DNA of 34,767 nucleotides from a virus. The notes beneath the pieces were generated by a model. That model was not told the origin of the DNA and did no database searches. It saw only the letters and a program-made list of their open reading frames with translations. Below, one piece after another: positions 1,692 to 12,484 of this stretch (positions within the stretch are counted from its first letter, which is position 1; each line of letters begins with the position of its first letter). Made by a program: the position numbers and the translations under genes. The stretch covers positions 1-34,767 of IMG/VR virus record IMGVR_UViG_3300004180_000003; one strand, 5' to 3'.

Positions 1692-4061
1692 ATGGAACAG
1701 AGTGAGATTATCAACAAGGCACTGTATGCCGATGCTGAGGAAATATCGCTGGCAATTGGGAAAAGCGTTAGGACTATTATTCGTATGGCGGACCATGATA
1801 AATGGGTGTTTTTACCAGAAAAAACCCGTAGTCGGCATCCTAAGAAGTGGTTTTTGATTAGTAAGTTGCCCATCGATATTGCTGCGAAAGTCATCCCATA
1901 CAAAGATCAACTTAGAAAGGAGTTACACAATGAGCAAAAAAGTAAAGATGTCGGTCATGCCGACAGTGCGGAAATTTCCGAACAAGCTAACTATGCACAA
2001 GATAACAGATCAGCAGATGGACGAGATTCTAGCAATGGAGCATCAGTTAACCGTCTACCAGCTGTCGTTCATGGCTCAGGCAAAGGGAAAACCAGGCGCA
2101 ATGATGCCAATGTGGCATCACCCAACTACTCAGAATTGGGCGGAAAATTACGAGCTGGAGTTTCATCAGGTGCCGGAGATGATGACGGAAACCCTATTAA
2201 TAGACCTATTGCAAGTTCGCAGACTGGCAACGCTGGGCCTGATCATAAAAGTCAGCTTACAGGGAAATCCTTGGTGGCAATTGACAGCGCGCGGCCATCT
2301 GGTGGTGACCTTGTACATGGGATACATGCAGGATTACCAGCAGGACATCGAAAATCTATAAAAACCACCGACAAACAACGCGAAATAGACGGCGCAAGGC
2401 AATACATTCTTAACTTTATTAAGCATTCAGGAAGTAAGGATGATGAAGCGGTTATTTTTATCAATCAGGGCTATAGCGCTGGCACTTTACATGCTGACTT
2501 GGTCCATGCCTATGAACATTGCAATGCTAAAGCCGCCAAGAAGGTTAAGCCATTAACTAAGCGTTCCGTAGTGCGTTGGCGCCAGTTAAAGACAAGAGAT
2601 ACCTCGTGTTTGCCGAAGAAAACCAGAGTGAAAGCCGATTGGCGGCAAGTGTGGTGGTTTCAGCTGTTTTTAAGTTGTTATCGCAAGCCGCAAAAGCCAA
2701 ATGTAACCGAAGCCTATAGGGACTTTAAAGAACTGTGGTGCGCACAAGGTTTAGTGATAGATGATTTACCCAAGTATGACGCGGTAAATCGACTGCTTAA
2801 CAAGATGCCACATATTGAGCGGGAAAAATATCGCCGTACTGGTGCAGAAATGGCAGCAATGATGTCATGCAAGCGGCGTAACTGGAATGATATGGCCAGC
2901 AATACCGTCTGGGTAGGAGATGGCCATACATTCAAGGCTAAGGTAATTAACCCTAAAAATGGTCGCGCCTTTGCCCCGGAAGTGACGGTGATTATTGATG
3001 CACGCAGTCGGTTTATTGTGGGGTGGGCATTTAGTTTATCGGAAAACGTTATTGCTGTATCAGAGGCACTTGGCAATGCCATGTTGAAGTATGGCAAACC
3101 CATTTTTTATTACTCTGACAATGGCTCTGGGCAAACCGCCAAGCAGTTGGATTGTAAGGTGGGCGGCTTGTTAGGGCGGATGGATATTAGCCATGAAACC
3201 GGCATACCAGGTAATCCACAAGGTCGCGGATTGATTGAAGGGCTTTGGGATATTACGGCAATTGCAGCGGCAAAGACCTTCCCAACCTTTCAAGGTACCG
3301 GCATGGATAGGGATACCTTACGTATTGTAACTAACAAGATTAACAGCGCTAAACGCAAAGGTGAAGTGCCGGATTTTGTCCCAGACTGGCATCGGTTTAT
3401 GGCGACTTGCGAGGAGTATTTTGACACTTATAACCATGAGCATAAGCACAGCAGTTTAGGCGGTAAAACGCCAGCGGAAGTGTACTTTGCCAACCTTAAT
3501 GATGAATGGAACCGGCCTTTAACAGAGAACGAGAAGATTAATCTGTATCGCCCATCTGAAATAAGAACGCCGCACCGAGGGGAAATAGACTGGATCAACA
3601 ACAAATATTTTCACAAAGACCTAGCTTATCTGCCAGCTAAGACCAAGGTGATGATGTCATACGATATGCACCATGCGGATTTTGTCTGGGTAAGCCACTT
3701 GAACGGGGAGTTTATTTGCAAGGCGGAATGGAATGGCAACATGGTAGATGGCTTTCCAAAAACCTTAGTTGATCAAAAAATATCTCAGCGTATTGATGGC
3801 ATTGTTAAACGTAAACAGGACGGTATGGATGCCGCCAATGCTGAACGCGGCCATGAAATCGAAGGCGAAGTATTGCAACGCATTCCGACGATACCAAAGG
3901 AAGTTATTGAGCCGTTGCAGTTTGTACCGGTGCCAGCCAAGACGGTTGAAGAGCCGCCGAAGCCGGTAGTGTTTACCAACTTTAGCAAGCAAGAACCCGA
4001 AGAGAAGACCGGTAGCTATATGGATACCGTGATGGCTCTTTACAAAAATAAGGGCCAATAA
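1692..4061 (+). CDS. A: MuA-like DDE transposase with enlarged linker
   Basis: This 789-residue protein performs strand transfer for integration and replicative transposition. Residues 1-75 form a MuA N-terminal winged-helix type domain; about 225-300 are the end-binding domains; the catalytic core carries D410 (GDGH), D476 (YSDNG) and E516 (GLIEG); the C-terminal part, about 570-789, should contact the B protein. MuA is 663 residues, and the extra length lies mainly in residues 80-223, rich in Ser, Gly, Asn and Asp with no Trp, Phe, Cys or Met. That stretch is exactly where another gene (1930-2361) is nested in the +1 frame. AAGGGAT precedes the ATG. Confidence 0.93.
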   Translation: MEQSEIINKALYADAEEISLAIGKSVRTIIRMADHDKWVFLPEKTRSRHPKKWFLISKLPIDIAAKVIPYKDQLRKELHNEQKSKDVGHADSAEISEQANYAQDNRSADGRDSSNGASVNRLPAVVHGSGKGKTRRNDANVASPNYSELGGKLRAGVSSGAGDDDGNPINRPIASSQTGNAGPDHKSQLTGKSLVAIDSARPSGGDLVHGIHAGLPAGHRKSIKTTDKQREIDGARQYILNFIKHSGSKDDEAVIFINQGYSAGTLHADLVHAYEHCNAKAAKKVKPLTKRSVVRWRQLKTRDTSCLPKKTRVKADWRQVWWFQLFLSCYRKPQKPNVTEAYRDFKELWCAQGLVIDDLPKYDAVNRLLNKMPHIEREKYRRTGAEMAAMMSCKRRNWNDMASNTVWVGDGHTFKAKVINPKNGRAFAPEVTVIIDARSRFIVGWAFSLSENVIAVSEALGNAMLKYGKPIFYYSDNGSGQTAKQLDCKVGGLLGRMDISHETGIPGNPQGRGLIEGLWDITAIAAAKTFPTFQGTGMDRDTLRIVTNKINSAKRKGEVPDFVPDWHRFMATCEEYFDTYNHEHKHSSLGGKTPAEVYFANLNDEWNRPLTENEKINLYRPSEIRTPHRGEIDWINNKYFHKDLAYLPAKTKVMMSYDMHHADFVWVSHLNGEFICKAEWNGNMVDGFPKTLVDQKISQRIDGIVKRKQDGMDAANAERGHEIEGEVLQRIPTIPKEVIEPLQFVPVPAKTVEEPPKPVVFTNFSKQEPEEKTGSYMDTVMALYKNKGQ
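1930..2361 (+). CDS. Nested overlapping gene inside transposase; putative winged-helix protein
   Basis: This 143-codon ORF lies wholly inside the transposase gene, in the +1 frame, covering transposase codons 80-223. Its ATG follows a strong ribosome binding site (AGAAAGGAG, about 1914-1922) by 7 bases. The product looks like a globular protein: four Trp, many Met and Tyr and regular hydrophobic spacing. Residues 86-130 (LLQVRRLATLGLII, then WWQLTARGH) resemble the last helix and wing of a MarR/PadR-like winged-helix domain. The transposase frame over the same bases is low-complexity, suggesting this frame is the older, constrained one. No homologue is recognised. A DNA-binding or transposition-modulating role is inference. 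Confidence 0.68.
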   Translation: MSKKVKMSVMPTVRKFPNKLTMHKITDQQMDEILAMEHQLTVYQLSFMAQAKGKPGAMMPMWHHPTTQNWAENYELEFHQVPEMMTETLLIDLLQVRRLATLGLIIKVSLQGNPWWQLTARGHLVVTLYMGYMQDYQQDIENL

Positions 4062-4132: not shown

Positions 4133-4882
4133 ATGAAAAGCCATTTTGTAAAAACCAGTAATTACCAAGTATTTATGGTCATGCTTGATGCGGTTGAAAG
4201 TCGAGCGCCTAAAGAGGGCCGCATTATCAACGTTAACGGCGAGCCAGGCAGCGGTAAAAGCCGCACCATGGACCATGTGGGCGCGGATCGTAATGCCATT
4301 TACATCAACGGCATGCCGGGTATGACAGTGGGTTATTTGCGGGATTTGCTGGCGTATGAGTTGGGCTGCCCGGGTGGTACTCGGTTGCAGCAGCAACAGG
4401 CGATAAACCGCGCGTTTAGTGAGCGGGTGCCGATGGTGATTTTTGACGAGGCCCAACATGGCCTACATAAAAAAGCCGAATGCATTGAGTTTTTGCGCTG
4501 CACCTGTGAGCAAGTCGGCAGTGTATTGGTGTTAGTGTGTCACACCTCGGAAAAGCACCGGTTTGGTGAACATAAGCTGGCCCATATCAGTACCCGGATC
4601 AGCGCGGTGGTTGAGTTTAAGCCCGCCAATACTGCCGATGCCATGCTGTATTTGCATGAGCTGTGCGAGGTGAAGATCGACATTGGCATTGCTCAGCTGG
4701 CAGCCGCCCAATCAAAGGGGCGCTATCGCTTGCTGGCCAATGCCTGCCGTACCTTGGAAGATTTCGCCCAGTCATCGGGTAAAACAGAGTTAACCATTAA
4801 TGATGTCAAAGGCATGATGCTCTGTGAAGACGCGATGAAAGCGTTACGCAATAAGGGCTTAAGCCAAAAGGCGGGTAACTAA
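4133..4882 (+). CDS. B: MuB-like AAA+ ATPase, target-capture protein
   Basis: A 249-residue ATPase with Walker A NGEPGSGKSR at 35-44 and Walker B PMVIFDEAQ at 100-108, plus a sensor strand VLVLVCHTSEKHR near 131-143. This is the AAA_22 type typical of transposition ATPases. In Mu, B coats target DNA, stimulates A and gives target immunity. It is shorter than MuB (312 aa), mainly because it lacks the N-terminal HTH extension; shorter forms are common in B3/D3112-like phages. It follows the transposase after a possible attenuator, has AAGGAT upstream of the ATG, and its TAA overlaps the next start by one base. Confidence 0.9.
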   Translation: MKSHFVKTSNYQVFMVMLDAVESRAPKEGRIINVNGEPGSGKSRTMDHVGADRNAIYINGMPGMTVGYLRDLLAYELGCPGGTRLQQQQAINRAFSERVPMVIFDEAQHGLHKKAECIEFLRCTCEQVGSVLVLVCHTSEKHRFGEHKLAHISTRISAVVEFKPANTADAMLYLHELCEVKIDIGIAQLAAAQSKGRYRLLANACRTLEDFAQSSGKTELTINDVKGMMLCEDAMKALRNKGLSQKAGN

Positions 4883-8282: not shown

Positions 8283-8754
8283 ATGCCCAATTTGCCACAG
8301 CCGCATTAGTCTTGAAGCCATGGTGCAAGACGATGCTGGGCGCGAGCTGCTTAATCTGCTGGTAAAACTGGACAGCAGCCACGCCCGCGCCTTGGTAAGT
8401 TACTTAGGGCTGTTTAGATCCAGCACCCGTGATTTATCAAACGACAAAGCCATCCGCTTGGCAAATGACGTGCTTGAGCTATGCCAGCCCTATGATTTTA
8501 AAGTATCGGCATTGCTTAAAACCGTTGAAAGCCTGCAAGGCAAAGGCGGCAAGCCGTTGGCTAACCATAACTACCTAAAGCGGGTGCTTGAGGACACCAC
8601 CAACAAAAACAAGGCCGTAGGATGGGTAGAACGCAGTGAAACCCATGCGGTTAATAAAGATGGGTTTCGCGATGCTCTACCCATCCTACCGGCACGCAAC
8701 CTCAGCAAAACCGCCCAGGCACTGCAATCACTAGAGGATTTTGGCAATGAATGA
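8269..8754 (+). CDS. Zinc-finger-like early protein carrying an in-frame palindromic insert
   Basis: A 161-residue protein. Start at ATG 8269, five bases after GGGGGAA; a TTG at 8251 is rejected. N-terminal CPICHSR is a half zinc knuckle, followed by DDAGRELLNLLVKL and ALVSYLGLFRSSTRDLS, a pattern seen in Mu-like early proteins. Residues about 117-140 (AVGWVERSETHAVNKDGFRD) are encoded by an inserted palindromic repeat (8617-8689) that keeps the frame open. Role probably DNA-related; unproven. Confidence 0.72.
   Translation: MQLNRCPICHSRISLEAMVQDDAGRELLNLLVKLDSSHARALVSYLGLFRSSTRDLSNDKAIRLANDVLELCQPYDFKVSALLKTVESLQGKGGKPLANHNYLKRVLEDTTNKNKAVGWVERSETHAVNKDGFRDALPILPARNLSKTAQALQSLEDFGNE
8617..8689. 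repeat. Palindromic repeat element, copy 1, inside a coding gene
   Basis: A 73-bp interrupted palindrome with 30-base arms (8617-8646 and 8660-8689) that pair at 25 of 30 positions. The outer 14 bases of each arm are perfect (GTAGGATGGGTAGA). The left arm is identical to copy 2 at 9436. Read in frame it gives the familiar GWVERSETH peptide found in many aquatic proteobacterial genomes. Confidence 0.88.
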
Positions 8755-9139
8755 GCCAGTCAACCAACCATTACCACCGGTTAACTGGCTTAAACAGTGT
8801 GTATCCGTGGGTATCGGTGCCTTGGTCGTGCTGCATTTAGACGGCGCACCACCGGCTGAAACCGTGCGCAGTACGGCATCCATGTGGTATCGCATTATCA
8901 AAGGTTGGCCGATCCTTTGGGACGAAGCCCTGGACAGAGGCCGCTTAACCCAAGCCTTTATTGCCCTGGCCAGTCAGTCAACACGCTGGCCAGCACCCCA
9001 CCAACTGCGACCGCTATTACCGTCGCGCATCTATCCACAACAGGCATTACCGCCACCCGAATACCCGGAGGAAAAAGCCAAAGCCAACCGGCAGAAAATA
9101 AGAGACTTATTAAAAACCGCTTACCGAAAAATCAACTAA
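8747..9139 (+). CDS. Conserved Mu-like early protein of unknown function
   Basis: A 130-residue protein (ATG 8747, overlapping the previous stop; TTG 8741 rejected). The order LPPVNWL, GALVVLHLDGAPPAETV, then WDEALDRGRLTQAFIALA and STRWPAPHQLRPLLP is typical of a hypothetical family found before the HU or SSB genes in transposable phages. The C-terminus is a basic helix (EKAKANRQKIRDLLKTAYRK). A replication-accessory role is a guess. Confidence 0.7.
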   Translation: MNEPVNQPLPPVNWLKQCVSVGIGALVVLHLDGAPPAETVRSTASMWYRIIKGWPILWDEALDRGRLTQAFIALASQSTRWPAPHQLRPLLPSRIYPQQALPPPEYPEEKAKANRQKIRDLLKTAYRKIN

Positions 9140-9156
9140 CCCAACCGGAGAACAAC

Positions 9157-9429
9157 ATGAACCACAAAGAACTGATCGAGCAATTATCAACCGATATCGC
9201 TACCAACAAAGCGACCATTGAGCGCGTTTTAAAAGGCCTTGCAGACGTTGCCGGCAACCAATTAAAAACTAACGGCAGCTTTGTTTTGCACGGCATCGGC
9301 TCTATCGTCACCGTTGACGCCGCCGCCCGTGAAGGCCGCAACCCTGCCACCGGCGAAGTCATCCACATCCCAGCCAAAAAGCGCATTAAGCTGAAGGCGT
9401 GTAAGGCATTAAAAGACGCCGTAGCATAA
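9157..9429 (+). CDS. HU/IHF-family DNA-bending protein
   Basis: A 90-residue protein of the HU/IHF fold: N-terminal two-helix dimer region (KELIEQLSTDIATNKATIER), the beta arm with GRNPATGEVIHIPAKKRIKL and a C-terminal helix (ACKALKDAV). The conserved RNPATGE...IPA turn that inserts between bases is intact. Starts at ATG 9157 after CCGGAG. HU is required for Mu transpososome assembly, so a phage-encoded copy next to replication genes makes sense. Confidence 0.92.
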   Translation: MNHKELIEQLSTDIATNKATIERVLKGLADVAGNQLKTNGSFVLHGIGSIVTVDAAAREGRNPATGEVIHIPAKKRIKLKACKALKDAVA

Positions 9430-9435
9430 CCATTG

Positions 9436-9504
9436 GTAGGATGGGTAGAACGCAGTGAAACCCATGCGGAAATGATGGGTTTCGCGATGCTCTACCCATC
9501 CTAC
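9436..9504. repeat. Palindromic repeat element, copy 2, intergenic
   Basis: A 69-bp copy between the HU-like and SSB-like genes. Arms at 9436-9465 and 9475-9504 are the same as those of copy 1; only the loop differs. It forms a long hairpin and may act as transcript end or processing site. Confidence 0.88.
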
Positions 9505-9535
9505 ACTTTACCAACCACCAACCACCTAAAACATC

Positions 9536-9835
9536 ATGGCCAAAAAATACGACTTAGCCGTTAAAACCGGCACCTACAAAGCGCAAGACGGCACCGATAA
9601 AGGCCGCTACGAAACCTTGGGCGAGATCCACCCAGGCCGAGACGGTGGCTACTTCGCCCGCATTAACGCCTTTCGGATGCTGGGCTTAGCAATGGCCGCC
9701 GTGGCCAGGGGCGATGATTCCGTGTTGGTGTCGTTGTTTACCCCTACCGGTACCAAATCCCTAGCAGCACCAGGGCCTGCACCAAGAGCACCAGAGCCAG
9801 AATTACCGCCATATGATGATGACATCCCGTTTTAG
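9536..9835 (+). CDS. Putative ssDNA-binding-like protein with SSB-type acidic tip
   Basis: A 99-residue protein. The N-terminal 65 residues (KYDLAVKTGTYKAQDGTDKG, then GEIHPGRDGGYFARINAF) suggest a small beta-barrel. Residues 78-90 are a Pro/Ala-rich linker, and the last nine residues end in YDDDDIPF-like acidity (PPYDDDIPF). Bacterial SSB ends in DDDIPF, the peptide that docks ExoI, PriA, RecQ and other repair proteins. It may bind ssDNA at transposition forks or recruit host replication proteins; the ssDNA part is inferred. Confidence 0.72.
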   Translation: MAKKYDLAVKTGTYKAQDGTDKGRYETLGEIHPGRDGGYFARINAFRMLGLAMAAVARGDDSVLVSLFTPTGTKSLAAPGPAPRAPEPELPPYDDDIPF

Positions 9836-9847
9836 AGGTTAGACAGC

Positions 9848-9870
9848 GTGGGCAGGGATTATCTGCCCAC
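9848..9870 (+). terminator. Hairpin after the early operon
   Basis: GTGGGCAG (9848-9855) and CTGCCCAC (9863-9870) form an 8-bp perfect stem with a 7-base loop. There is no T run, so it may be a Rho-assisted end or a 3' stabiliser rather than an intrinsic terminator. Confidence 0.5.
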
Positions 9871-9919
9871 CATTAACCTGCTATATTCAAACGCTTAACC
9901 AATAACACCAGATGGATTT

Positions 9920-10591
9920 ATGAAAAAGATAACGATTTTATTAGCGGGATTGGCTTTAACAGGCTGTGCAAACCTTAAGTATCCTGGTTGGGAGCAAGTA
10001 AAAGTCACGGACTCGGTCTACAAACAACCTTGTCGATTTGTCATTGAAGAATATTGTCTTGAAGAGGGGAGTGCAGCTTGCTTAGACTGGTATAAAAAAC
10101 GAGTGATTAAAAACGATGCGAATACTTTAATTACCCCAAAAAATGGAACTGGCCAATATTTTTATTGTTCCGCAGGCTTACCTCCATTTATCGCAAAGCC
10201 AAAATCTATATATCTCGTAAAACCAAGCGAATTTAAACCGGCTGCAACCAAGATAGACTATGCGCAAGCAACGGCAGAATGTACTTATGAATCACATAAA
10301 GCCACTGTTGATACTAGCGGACCACAACCTGTTAGGGCATATACTCCAACGTTAAGTTACAGCTACAATTCAGCACAGCTAAGTGCTATAAGTCAGGATA
10401 GTACCAATCAACTCCATCATGAAATAATGCTAAGCCAAGAAGAATCAAAGCTTTTTAGCGAATGCCTGACAGCGAAAGGATTTGTTATTAGCCATACCAA
10501 TGATGCACAGTCAATGGATGCGCACCTTAAAAACTGTCCAGAATTGGAAAGCCACAACCAGCCCTGCTTTATTCCTAATTCGCCCCAATAA
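9920..10591 (+). CDS. Lipoprotein, probable accessory (moron) gene
   Basis: A 223-residue protein with a lipoprotein signal: KK start, hydrophobic ILLAGLALTG and Cys at residue 16 (LTGC). The rest has several cysteines (CRFVIEEYCLEEGSAACLDW) that could form disulfides in the periplasm. It is more AT-rich than its neighbours and sits between two hairpins, outside the coupled early string, suggesting later acquisition. Such lipoproteins in prophages often change the host surface or block superinfection; no specific function is claimed. Confidence 0.75.
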   Translation: MKKITILLAGLALTGCANLKYPGWEQVKVTDSVYKQPCRFVIEEYCLEEGSAACLDWYKKRVIKNDANTLITPKNGTGQYFYCSAGLPPFIAKPKSIYLVKPSEFKPAATKIDYAQATAECTYESHKATVDTSGPQPVRAYTPTLSYSYNSAQLSAISQDSTNQLHHEIMLSQEESKLFSECLTAKGFVISHTNDAQSMDAHLKNCPELESHNQPCFIPNSPQ

Positions 10592-10602
10592 AGGCCAAAG
10601 CC

Positions 10603-10630
10603 AAGCAGCCATCAACATTGGCGGCTGTTT
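10603..10630 (+). terminator. Weak terminator-like hairpin after the lipoprotein gene
   Basis: AAGCAGCC (10603-10610) pairs with GGCTGTTT (10623-10630) with one G-T pair; loop of 12 bases, followed by GTCTTT. Modest stability. Confidence 0.4.
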
Positions 10631-10740
10631 GTCTTTACCCTTTGAAATGTTTGACAAAAGAAAAACCGAGGGCTAAGCTAATCGGGCGTTGGCAAAATAC
10701 AACGCTCGGGCTTGACATCTCGGTACTTCACGGCACATCG

Positions 10741-10760
10741 CCGCATCATGCGGTTTTTTT
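10741..10760 (+). terminator. Rho-independent terminator upstream of C4 RNA
   Basis: CCGCA-TCA-TGCGG (10741-10753) followed immediately by seven T (10754-10760). It should insulate the C4 RNA and antirepressor segment from upstream transcription. Confidence 0.78.
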
Positions 10761-10793
10761 ATGTGCATTGCTTCAGCTCTTCATTATGTCGGG

Positions 10794-10850
10794 CTGGGCA
10801 GGCCGCCGCAAGGCGGGCCGGTCGTGAGTCCGGTATGTCAACCTGCTCAG
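10794..10850 (+). ncRNA. c4: C4-type antisense RNA
   Basis: Predicted three-way junction. Closing stem CTGGGCAGG (10794-10802) with CCTGCTCAG (10842-10850), one G-U; hairpin 2 CCGCC-GCAA-GGCGG (10803-10816), a GNRA loop; hairpin 3 CCGG (10818-10821) and CCGG (10830-10833) with an 8-base loop. The loop contains CGTGAGT (10823-10829), exactly complementary to ACTCACG (10893-10899) at the antirepressor ribosome binding site. Shape and place match the C4 RNA of P1/P7, which silences ant by pairing. No clear promoter was found; a weak one (TTATGT, CATTAT) may lie at 10759-10787. Confidence 0.82.
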
Positions 10851-10851
10851 T

Positions 10852-10902
10852 CCGGCGCCATGTGTGACATTGTGACGCCGGGTATTTAACTTACTCACGG
10901 AG
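10852..10902 (+). promoter_or_regulatory. Antirepressor leader with C4 target sites and short reading frame
   Basis: CCGGCG (10852-10857) and CGCCGG (10876-10881) can form a hairpin whose loop has TGACAT (10865-10870), complementary to ATGTCA in C4 (10835-10840). The second target ACTCACG (10893-10899) overlaps the GGAG ribosome binding site (10899-10902). A nine-codon frame (10860-10889) is translatable across the hairpin and ends 20 bases before the antirepressor ATG. Confidence 0.65.
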
Positions 10903-10909
10903 CAATACA

Positions 10910-11473
10910 ATGAAAACTCAAGTCCAAACTTTCCAATTCCATTCTCATTCACTGCGTGTCATCGTTAACGATAATGGTGAACCTTGGTTTATCGCCAAAG
11001 ATGTAGCCGACCATCTTGGTTTTAGTGATACACAAGCAATGACTCGCAAGCTCGAAGAGGATGATGTTAAAAAAGCAAACCTATTTGAAATCGGTTTGCA
11101 TAACAATCAAACGCTTATAAGTGAATCTGGCTTATATTTATCGGTATTATCAAGCCGAAAACCAGAAACAAAAGCATTCAAAAAATGGGTGACTGCCGAA
11201 GTCCTGCCATCTTTACGCAAAACCGGCAGCTACGGCATCCCCAAAGAAGCCGCCGCGACTATCCAAGCCTTACAAACCGAACTGCTCAAAGCCCGTCCAC
11301 GCTTAAACGACACCTTAAAGCTCAGGCAGGCTGGGTTTTCCAAGGCCAGAACAGCGAAAATGCTGGGCTTTGGTGAAACCACCATCGATAAAGAAGTTAG
11401 CATCCTAAAAGCCTGTGGCTATCCAGTCGCTACCCCCGGCACACAGGTCGATTTGTTTGGCGGTGAGTTATGA
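10910..11473 (+). CDS. Bro-N domain antirepressor
   Basis: A 187-residue protein. Residues about 5-105 are a Bro-N domain: WFIAKDVADHLGFSDTQAM, LISESGLYLSVLSSRKPETK, AFKKWVTAEVLPSLRKTGSY. Residues 136-172 form a resolvase-like helix-turn-helix (LRQAGFSKARTAKMLGFGET). It is the type of protein that lifts repression in P1 and P22-like phages, and it has the matching C4 antisense RNA immediately upstream. Its likely target is the repressor at 495-1067, by inference. Its ATG follows GGAG by seven bases. Confidence 0.88.
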   Translation: MKTQVQTFQFHSHSLRVIVNDNGEPWFIAKDVADHLGFSDTQAMTRKLEEDDVKKANLFEIGLHNNQTLISESGLYLSVLSSRKPETKAFKKWVTAEVLPSLRKTGSYGIPKEAAATIQALQTELLKARPRLNDTLKLRQAGFSKARTAKMLGFGETTIDKEVSILKACGYPVATPGTQVDLFGGEL

Positions 11474-11778
11474 GTAATGTGATTGCCTTCCCCGCGCCTA
11501 AAGAAAAGGATGTTTATGTCGCGCCTGAAGTTGCCGTTATGTACATATTTACCATGGCATTTGGTGGCAACGATAAAGCTAAGCAATGGGCAGAATATGG
11601 ATTGGAAGTCGCCAAAGAGCGTGGATTCGCTTTAAGCGATATGCTCATTAGATATGCCACAAACCCTGAAACGGAGGCGAATGGCGTGCGTGCATTGAAA
11701 AGCTTTGTTGAATATCTGCCTGCTGAAGAGTTTTTCACTATTAATGGGTTAGAGGTTGTTAAAGGCGGTGCCGCATGA
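11470..11778 (+). CDS. Hypothetical protein in antirepressor operon
   Basis: A 102-residue protein (start overlaps the antirepressor stop as ATGA). Mostly helical: APEVAVMYIFTMAFGGNDKA, then KQWAEYGLEVAKERG and NGVRALKSFVEYLPAEEFF. No known domain recognised. Cotranslation with the antirepressor suggests a linked role in the lysis-lysogeny switch or simply early expression. Confidence 0.68.
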   Translation: MSNVIAFPAPKEKDVYVAPEVAVMYIFTMAFGGNDKAKQWAEYGLEVAKERGFALSDMLIRYATNPETEANGVRALKSFVEYLPAEEFFTINGLEVVKGGAA

Positions 11779-11993
11779 GCCCAACCCTAGACGCCCTTGA
11801 TCGCATCGACAACATTACCGTGTGTTTAGAGGCGGTCAGCGATTTACTGCTACCAGAAACCGACCTGCATGCCGTTAACCGCGATAAACAAGCCGTGCTG
11901 TTAGCGTTTTTAGTAGCCGAACTACAAGCCGCCCGCCAGCAACTAAGCCACGCCAACCGGCCCGATAACCCCGTTATTGCTATGCATCAATAA
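11775..11993 (+). CDS. Hypothetical small helical protein
   Basis: A 72-residue protein rich in Leu, Ala and Asp (LDALDRIDNITVCLEAVSDL and VLLAFLVAELQAARQQL), predicted as two amphipathic helices. Starts by ATGA overlap; last gene of this operon, directly followed by a strong terminator. Function unknown. Confidence 0.66.
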   Translation: MSPTLDALDRIDNITVCLEAVSDLLLPETDLHAVNRDKQAVLLAFLVAELQAARQQLSHANRPDNPVIAMHQ

Positions 11994-12082: not shown

Positions 12083-12484
12083 ATGCCAGTACTGCCACTT
12101 TTTGATTTACCAACTGCGCTCATCCCTGAGCGCTTGCAGGAGATCGCCGGGTATTGCGGCGAGCAAACCGCGCTGGTATTGCTGCTTAATTTCCCCGGCG
12201 TGCATGTGCGCATCCCTAAAAAAGCCCACCCCACCCATAAACTTGCTGAGCTGTTAGGGATGCCCGCCTTTTTAAAAATGGTGGAGATTTTTCCAGATGA
12301 AGTGCTGCAAATCCCCCGCGCGGCCAAAGCCATTAGGGCGTTGCGCAATCAACAAATTCTGCGTGATTTTGCGGTCGGGCACTCCCAAGCCCGAATAGCG
12401 CTTAATTACGGCATGACTGAGCGCCAGGTAAACACCATTTGCAACACCGTCCGCATTGATAGCCAGCTGGATTTGTTTGCCTAA
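12083..12484 (+). CDS. mor: Mor/C-type late-gene activator
   Basis: A 133-residue protein of the Mor transcription activator family. Visible features are the N-terminal dimer region (IPERLQEIAGYCGEQTALVL), the strand GVHVRIPK and a C-terminal helix-turn-helix in residues 95-128 (DFAVGHSQARIALNYGMTER, then QVNTIC). Mor and C of Mu bind a dyad upstream of promoters lacking a good -35 box and recruit RNA polymerase. Only one such gene is seen, so it probably does the work of both Mor and C for lysis, head and tail genes. Preceded by a strong terminator. Confidence 0.88.
   Translation: MPVLPLFDLPTALIPERLQEIAGYCGEQTALVLLLNFPGVHVRIPKKAHPTHKLAELLGMPAFLKMVEIFPDEVLQIPRAAKAIRALRNQQILRDFAVGHSQARIALNYGMTERQVNTICNTVRIDSQLDLFA

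Follow-up and report, generated by a model that had tools for sequence, protein, structure and literature searches.

What does a C4 antisense RNA control in a Mu-like phage that carries a CI-type repressor of its own, and what does a copy of the RNA's target do upstream of it? We analysed a window of 34,767 nucleotides (positions 1 to 34,767 of IMG/VR virus record IMGVR_UViG_3300004180_000003), in which a preliminary description had proposed a C4 RNA that controls a Bro-N antirepressor beside a CI-type repressor and Ner. Matches to Pfam and phrog bore out this context. They gave the gene order CI-type helix-turn-helix (HTH) repressor, Ner, TnpA, TnpB, C4-ant, Mor and lysozyme, with transposase A and B, Ner and Mor arranged as in a Mu-like phage, and relatives with the same order were found. 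The Ner-like winged-helix repressor (1243-1671; PF13693, 2e-23; phrog_769), the Mu-type transposase A (1692-4061; PF09299; phrog_310, 4e-118) and the transposition protein B of the AAA type (4133-4882; PF13401; phrog_296) are all encoded on the plus strand, as is the Mor-like middle/late activator (12083-12484; PF08765, 2e-8; phrog_836), the next operon landmark 3' of ant. The CI-type repressor of 190 aa, the presumed target of Ant, is encoded on the minus strand (495-1067; Pfam, phrog). Its Pfam matches were to HTH families only and the S24 peptidase domain was absent, in agreement with the earlier claim of a repressor without a self-cleavage domain. Between this gene and Ner, positions 1084-1197 contain the repeats CCGGTTGAGTCA, CCGGTTGAGACA and CCGGTTAAGACA and one inverse copy, which are likely operators.

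The identity of the RNA was examined by an Infernal search with Rfam models, which had been named as the first test able to refute it. The covariance model RF01695 matched positions 10782-10862 of the plus strand with 58.6 bits (cut-off 45; E 5e-9; full model 1-87), and this was the sole Rfam match over the cut-off in the window. The minimum free energy (MFE) fold is a three-way junction with a closing stem, a GCAA (GNRA) hairpin and a second hairpin; its energy of −48.3 kcal/mol (z −5.56) was equalled by none of 200 shuffles. These results show both family membership and fold. The junction and both hairpins agree with the preliminary description, but the closing stem has 15 bp in the MFE fold (10788-10802 with 10842-10856) instead of 9. 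Likewise, the span of 10794-10902 given there holds the loop and its target but begins 12 bases inside C4 and does not reach the promoter, the upstream target copy and the terminator (10651-10766). By analogy with the P1 record, the mature form of C4 would extend from about 10788 to 10859.

The C4 loop b' (CGTGAGT, 10823-10829) is the exact complement of b2 (ACTCACG, 10893-10899), 64 bases downstream. On the plus strand, b2 overlaps GGAG (10899-10902), the ribosome-binding site (RBS) of ant, so that the whole element covers 10893-10902; the ATG follows at 10910. The gene (10910-11473, plus strand) encodes an antirepressor-like protein of 187 aa with a Bro-N domain (PF02498, 2e-23; 83.1 bits against a Pfam cut-off of 25.6) and a match to phrog_130, anti-repressor Ant (3e-42). 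Within the C4 junction segment a' (ATGTCAA, 10835-10841), the bases ATGTCA (10835-10840) are complementary to a2 (TGACAT, 10865-10870, plus strand), which lies between C4 and the gene. When the window stretch was mononucleotide-shuffled, a complement of at least 7 nt to the 8-nt loop arose within 60 nt in 98 of 20,000 shuffles. The duplex of C4 with a2b2 has a calculated energy of −21.9 kcal/mol, equalled in 0 of 300 shuffles. The proposed pairing of the loop with the RBS of a Bro-N gene was borne out by the exact 7-nt match and by this energy. In a cross matrix of eight C4 RNAs, the cognate a2b2 was the best-pairing target in all eight rows, as expected of immunity specificity. We consider it very probable that C4 silences ant here, in what would be an antisense immunity module of the C4 type.

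The segment CGCCGGGT between a2 and b2 (10876-10883, plus strand) is complementary to the 3' closing strand of C4, GTCCGGCG (10850-10857). This pairing reached at least 8 bp in 42 of 73 loci among the matches listed (permuted mean 18.4, maximum 27). From the complementarity, an anti-C4 hairpin is possible, in which C4 would be broken and a2 would lie in a loop.

The C4 loci studied are a sample: a pattern scan of viral contigs gave at least 119 stretches, and some of the 119 listed match the pattern by chance, without RBS pairing. After addition of the window and removal of duplicates, 106 distinct loci were obtained. We searched a region of 60 nt, beginning 15 nt 3' of the motif, for complements of each loop. 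A complement of at least 7 nt was present in 61 of the 106 loci among the matches listed (window included), compared with a mean of 2.8 and a maximum of 8 for permuted loops (500 permutations). The excess over the permuted mean indicates that the pairing is under selection. A chance match of the loop, considered as an alternative, was rejected by this permutation among loci. The loop-to-RBS match recurs across the family with differing sequences, and loop and target thus covary; the covarying targets are shown by the data, as is the gene context.

For tests of the leader, P1, P7 and some records found by their transposase were added, giving 112 loci, of which 76 were kept (match of at least 6 nt at the right distance) and 73 had enough upstream DNA. 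Of the 76 loci, 74 among the matches listed have an open reading frame (ORF) that begins shortly after b2, which places the loop matches at ribosome-binding sites. We compared 69 of the 72 distinct first ORFs with Pfam (L049, L070 and L087 were omitted for doubtful starts or frames, and the ends or starts of L021 and L067 were taken at slightly different positions). Bro-N was the commonest family directly 3' of C4 (13 of the 69 ORFs among the matches listed), followed by Rha (6), KilA-N (4), AntA (3) and P22_AR_N (2); DUF6124 (3) and DUF3077 (2), families of unknown function, were also represented among these listed matches. This spread suggests that antirepressor-like genes of several unrelated kinds are under C4 control. 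A protein of about 72 aa starting with MSYDTQEA or similar is encoded directly 3' of C4 in L013, L017, L059, L061, L102, L117 and others, where it occupies the place that icd has in P1. The gene behind the intact C4 of L155 (1318-1452, minus strand) has an in-frame stop, which leaves it 45 codons, and is possibly a broken antirepressor. In L142 (G131), a Bro-N gene precedes C4 (record positions of about 10616-10864 and 11467-11548), and another gene, AntA-like by our reading, follows it (L157, 1629-2231); the target of this C4 seems to have been exchanged.

Upstream of C4, the window has a second copy of the target, as P1 does. This copy, a1b1 (10712-10732, plus strand), was delimited by duplex folding with the loop-to-junction part of C4 and consists of a1 (TTGACAT, 10712-10718), a CGG and b1 (ACTTCACG, 10725-10732), of which TCACG pairs contiguously with the C4 loop. 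The a1b1/C4 duplex has 18 pairs with one-base bulges and an energy of −21.3 kcal/mol (0 of 300 shuffles equal), and it is more contiguous than that of a2b2 in the window. Within b1 itself, 5 contiguous pairs and a bulge are formed, which is weaker than in most relatives. A probable sigma-70-like promoter of the C4-ant unit precedes a1b1 on the plus strand (10651-10679: TTGACA at 10651-10656, 17 nt, TAAGCT at 10674-10679). A similar arrangement, TTGAC or TTGAT, 17 or 18 nt and TAnnCT, precedes C4 in seven Mu-like relatives. A mechanical promoter scan did not have 10651-10679 among its calls, and from the sequence we infer promoter activity and a start site here. In the P1 record, an operator of C1 lies at the c4 promoter, whereas none was seen in the window: comparison of the C4 promoter with the early CI/Ner region gave isolated one-mismatch 10-mers only, and the repeats of 1084-1197 were not seen there. 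This was a simple comparison, which leaves room for an operator at the C4 promoter.

Directly 3' of b1, three strands begin that can fold in two ways: strands 1 and 2 form a putative antiterminator hairpin, and strands 2 and 3, followed by a T-run, form an intrinsic-terminator-like hairpin, an arrangement like that of an attenuator. In the window, the antiterminator pairs CGGC (10731-10734) with GCCG (10740-10743; 4 bp, −4.9 kcal/mol, plus strand), and its first 2 nt are the last two of b1. The terminator-like hairpin (10741-10760, plus strand; −5.3 kcal/mol) pairs CCGCA with TGCGG and is followed by seven T (10754-10760); it was found by our script and by a terminator scan (stem 10740-10754). 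The two hairpins span 10731-10760 and are mutually exclusive. An outer helix of GCACAT (10733-10738) with ATGTGC (10761-10766), spanning 10733-10766 of the plus strand, encloses terminator and T-run and can form in read-through RNA alone.

We investigated whether this layout recurs, using scripts for terminators, antiterminators and folding shares whose thresholds were chosen by ourselves. Among the matches listed, b1 reached at least 6 nt in 64 of 73 loci (permuted mean 9.1, maximum 17) and at least 7 nt in 44 of 73 (permuted mean 2.3, maximum 7). A terminator-like hairpin with T-run was found by the script in 59 of the 73 listed loci; the 14 without one include a few that were mis-anchored, L021 and L106 having been counted as lacking a terminator for this reason. 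Fifty-eight leaders of the 73 could be parsed (49 clusters at 80% ungapped identity); L075 was left out of the antiterminator test as mis-anchored. In the b1 test and the cross matrix, L153 was left unparsed for want of a motif match. An antiterminator of at least 5 bp was present in 47 of these 58 listed leaders, compared with a permuted mean of 23.6 and a maximum of 33 in 300 permutations; shuffled leaders, a less strict control than permuted ones, gave an expectation of 5.3. At a cut-off of 4 bp, which the antiterminator of the window just meets, the count (53 of 58 among the matches listed) was hardly above the permuted leaders (mean 47.4, maximum 52). The first strand of the antiterminator was overlapped by b1 in 48 of 50 loci among the matches listed, by a median of 2 nt, which is also the overlap in the window. 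The outer helix had at least 6 bp in 26 of 50 listed loci (permuted mean 13.3, maximum 20).

When a1b1 was blocked in folding calculations, the predicted terminator share rose by more than 0.05 in 37 of 50 loci among the matches listed and fell in none, and the mean over these 50 listed loci went from 0.58 to 0.95. This rise is partly due to the overlap of b1 with the antiterminator, the bound-state calculation blocking the overlapping bases by construction. The leaders of P1 and P7 have the same antiterminator/terminator layout, with predicted terminator shares of 0.92 without and 0.93 with C4 for P1 and of 0.16 and 0.88 for P7; their a1b1 energies (−8.7 and −13.1) are not meaningful, as cropping removed a1. 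For the window, the share goes from 0.88 in the absence of C4 to 0.93 in its presence, and the attenuator prediction is a weak one for the window itself.

From these data, we infer a series of steps that comprises processing, repression of ant, action of Ant on CI and attenuation. One transcript from a promoter near 10651 would carry a1b1, terminator, C4, a2b2 and ant. As in P1, C4 would be excised from it by RNase P as a small RNA of about 77 nt, at a site suggested by the P1 record. The loop and junction of C4 would pair with a2b2 and mask the RBS of the Bro-N antirepressor; with a2b2 covered, lysogens would make C4 and little Ant. With no self-cleavage domain in the CI-type repressor, it is probably Ant that relieves repression, on the assumption that it acts on this CI. 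On new transcripts, C4 would also pair with a1b1 and take the first bases of the antiterminator, so that termination before C4 and ant would be favoured, a negative feedback. The antiterminator would form first, and co-transcriptional folding could favour it. Whether C4 feeds back on its own operon in this way is, in our estimate, an even question for the locus. For the family as a whole, P1 and P7 included, we propose with a probability of roughly 0.5 that C4 acts twice, blocking translation at a2b2 and attenuating transcription through a1b1 before its own gene. On infection, this same-strand, same-transcript autoregulation would yield C4 and antirepressor in a pulse that limits itself, and the anti-C4 hairpin may set whether a transcript becomes C4 or mRNA.

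The more contiguous pairing of a1b1 (18 pairs, one-base bulges, −21.3 kcal/mol) would also suit a decoy: C4 could act at the RBS of ant only, and the leader RNA ending at the terminator could soak it up. The terminator predicted with or without C4 in the window (0.93 and 0.88) would then release a1b1 RNA steadily. Such a sponge, however, needs no terminator-competing hairpin that overlaps b1, yet the listed leaders have one of at least 5 bp in 47 of 58, more than in any of 300 permutations, and in 48 of 50 it shares bases with b1. We regard the sponge as possible but less probable than dual action.

In P1, C4 blocks translation of icd and Rho-dependent termination ensues. The pairing of C4 at a1b1 and a2b2 could likewise act mainly by blocking translation, with Rho-dependent termination inside ant to follow, and the upstream hairpins could then be processing signals for the release of C4. 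In accordance with this, the outer helix forms in read-through RNA alone and encloses the terminator, and cleavage sites a little 5' of C4 are described for P1 and P7 and for Acinetobacter baumannii C4-like RNAs (PMC5320573). The T-run right behind the second hairpin in most leaders, however, marks an intrinsic terminator and not a cleavage site, and we hold this explanation to be unlikely. The degraded upstream b1 of the window (5 nt) compared with its relatives might also point to a decayed or repurposed C4 that has lost control of ant in this phage. Against this, all stems are intact, the match of loop and b2 is exact and the duplex energy lies beyond all 300 shuffles, which makes decay very improbable. 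Silencing of ant by C4, with feedback at a1b1 as a proposed second step, is our preferred reading.

The preliminary description had considered the joining of C4 to a transposable phage unusual. This was overstated, because C4 occurs in further Mu-like phages, and Bro-N is the commonest family behind C4. The PF09299 transposase was present in 7 of 119 C4-pattern records among the matches listed (3/50, 0/30 and 4/39); in one of the seven, G102, the matched pattern (L103) shows no RBS pairing and is probably not a C4. Conversely, C4 was found in 7 of 23 transposase-matched records, some of which are short fragments or distant relatives. These relatives were obtained with three closer TnpA members, a seven-member alignment being too divergent to scan. 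Its position relative to mor varies: C4 precedes mor in the window, L122 and L124 and follows it in L123, L140, L141, L142 and L147.

Single-protein scans of viral contigs with Ant and TnpA found no relative, nor did a distant blastn search of 10401-11900 against phages. A relative was found as a prophage in a Rhodocyclaceae assembly (L130), and this family is a lead for the window's host. Identity of L130 to the window is 96% over 81-908, 92% over 8703-9984 and, for the Mor protein, 97%; the left sides are mostly 89-96% identical in DNA, with 75% in the transposase region. Just before mor, window positions of about 9985-11990, including C4-ant, are replaced in L130 (11705-14312) by unrelated genes, among which no antirepressor was seen. 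By cmscan, no C4 was found there even at E 5, and none in the whole assembly. Since L130 lacks C4-ant, the unit is an exchangeable cassette, placed before or after mor, and such a phage can do without it. The 96% identity of L130 on the CI side, together with its lack of C4-ant, indicates that the C4-ant layer is optional and is a point against the proposed scheme, in which Ant is assumed to act on CI.

The locus shares with the P1/P7 C4 (RF01695; immI operon c4-icd-ant) the fold, the loop and junction targets, the order of a1b1 before and a2b2 behind C4, the target over an RBS and the antirepressor operon. In the P1 record, a2 is at the same place relative to C4 as in the window, and the a1 and b1 before c4 are labelled 'putative'. 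The carrier differs, being a transposable phage, unlike P1 and P7. Moreover, the first gene in P1 is icd, followed by ant, whereas C4 of the window is predicted to act directly on the Bro-N antirepressor gene. In plasmids, antisense attenuators are known from pT181 repC and pIP501 repR, in which the antisense RNA tips the nascent leader towards a terminator. Those RNAs are made from the opposite strand, whereas C4 would share both strand and transcript with the leader on which it acts. The Ant protein of phage P22 is not known to be of the Bro-N type. Its translation is blocked by the small RNA sar, according to PMC12197685, but this RNA and its fold differ from C4.

C4-like sRNAs are expressed in A. 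baumannii, where coverage increases at a GGW site immediately 5' of the C4 part (PMC5320573). They share the C4 fold with the window, but they are described as a group of 21 related sRNAs of a single genome, for which no antirepressor target is stated (PMC5320573), whereas the window has one copy adjoining its target. Weinberg et al. 2010 list a c4-a1b1 motif in gamma-Proteobacteria and phages, scored as not cis-regulatory (PMC2864571). Its name and position suggest the same leader as that of the window; the main text, as far as available, gives no terminator reading of it (PMC2864571). No attenuator proposal for a1b1 and no stated role for it were found in the literature searched, outside which the founding P1 papers fell; a proposal of this kind may exist in the literature of the 1990s. 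The C4 of the window is of a kind already known, and the proposed attenuator is the part that would be novel. If confirmed, an attenuator at a1b1 would be novel for the C4 family in general.

Our findings suggest that the cassette moves between transposable phages near mor, and that carriage of the CI repressor is separated from carriage of an antirepressor switch. The upstream copy a1b1 would gain a concrete role as a C4-controlled attenuator. If this is true, a textbook immunity RNA would act at a second level, on transcription, and would do so in many phages.
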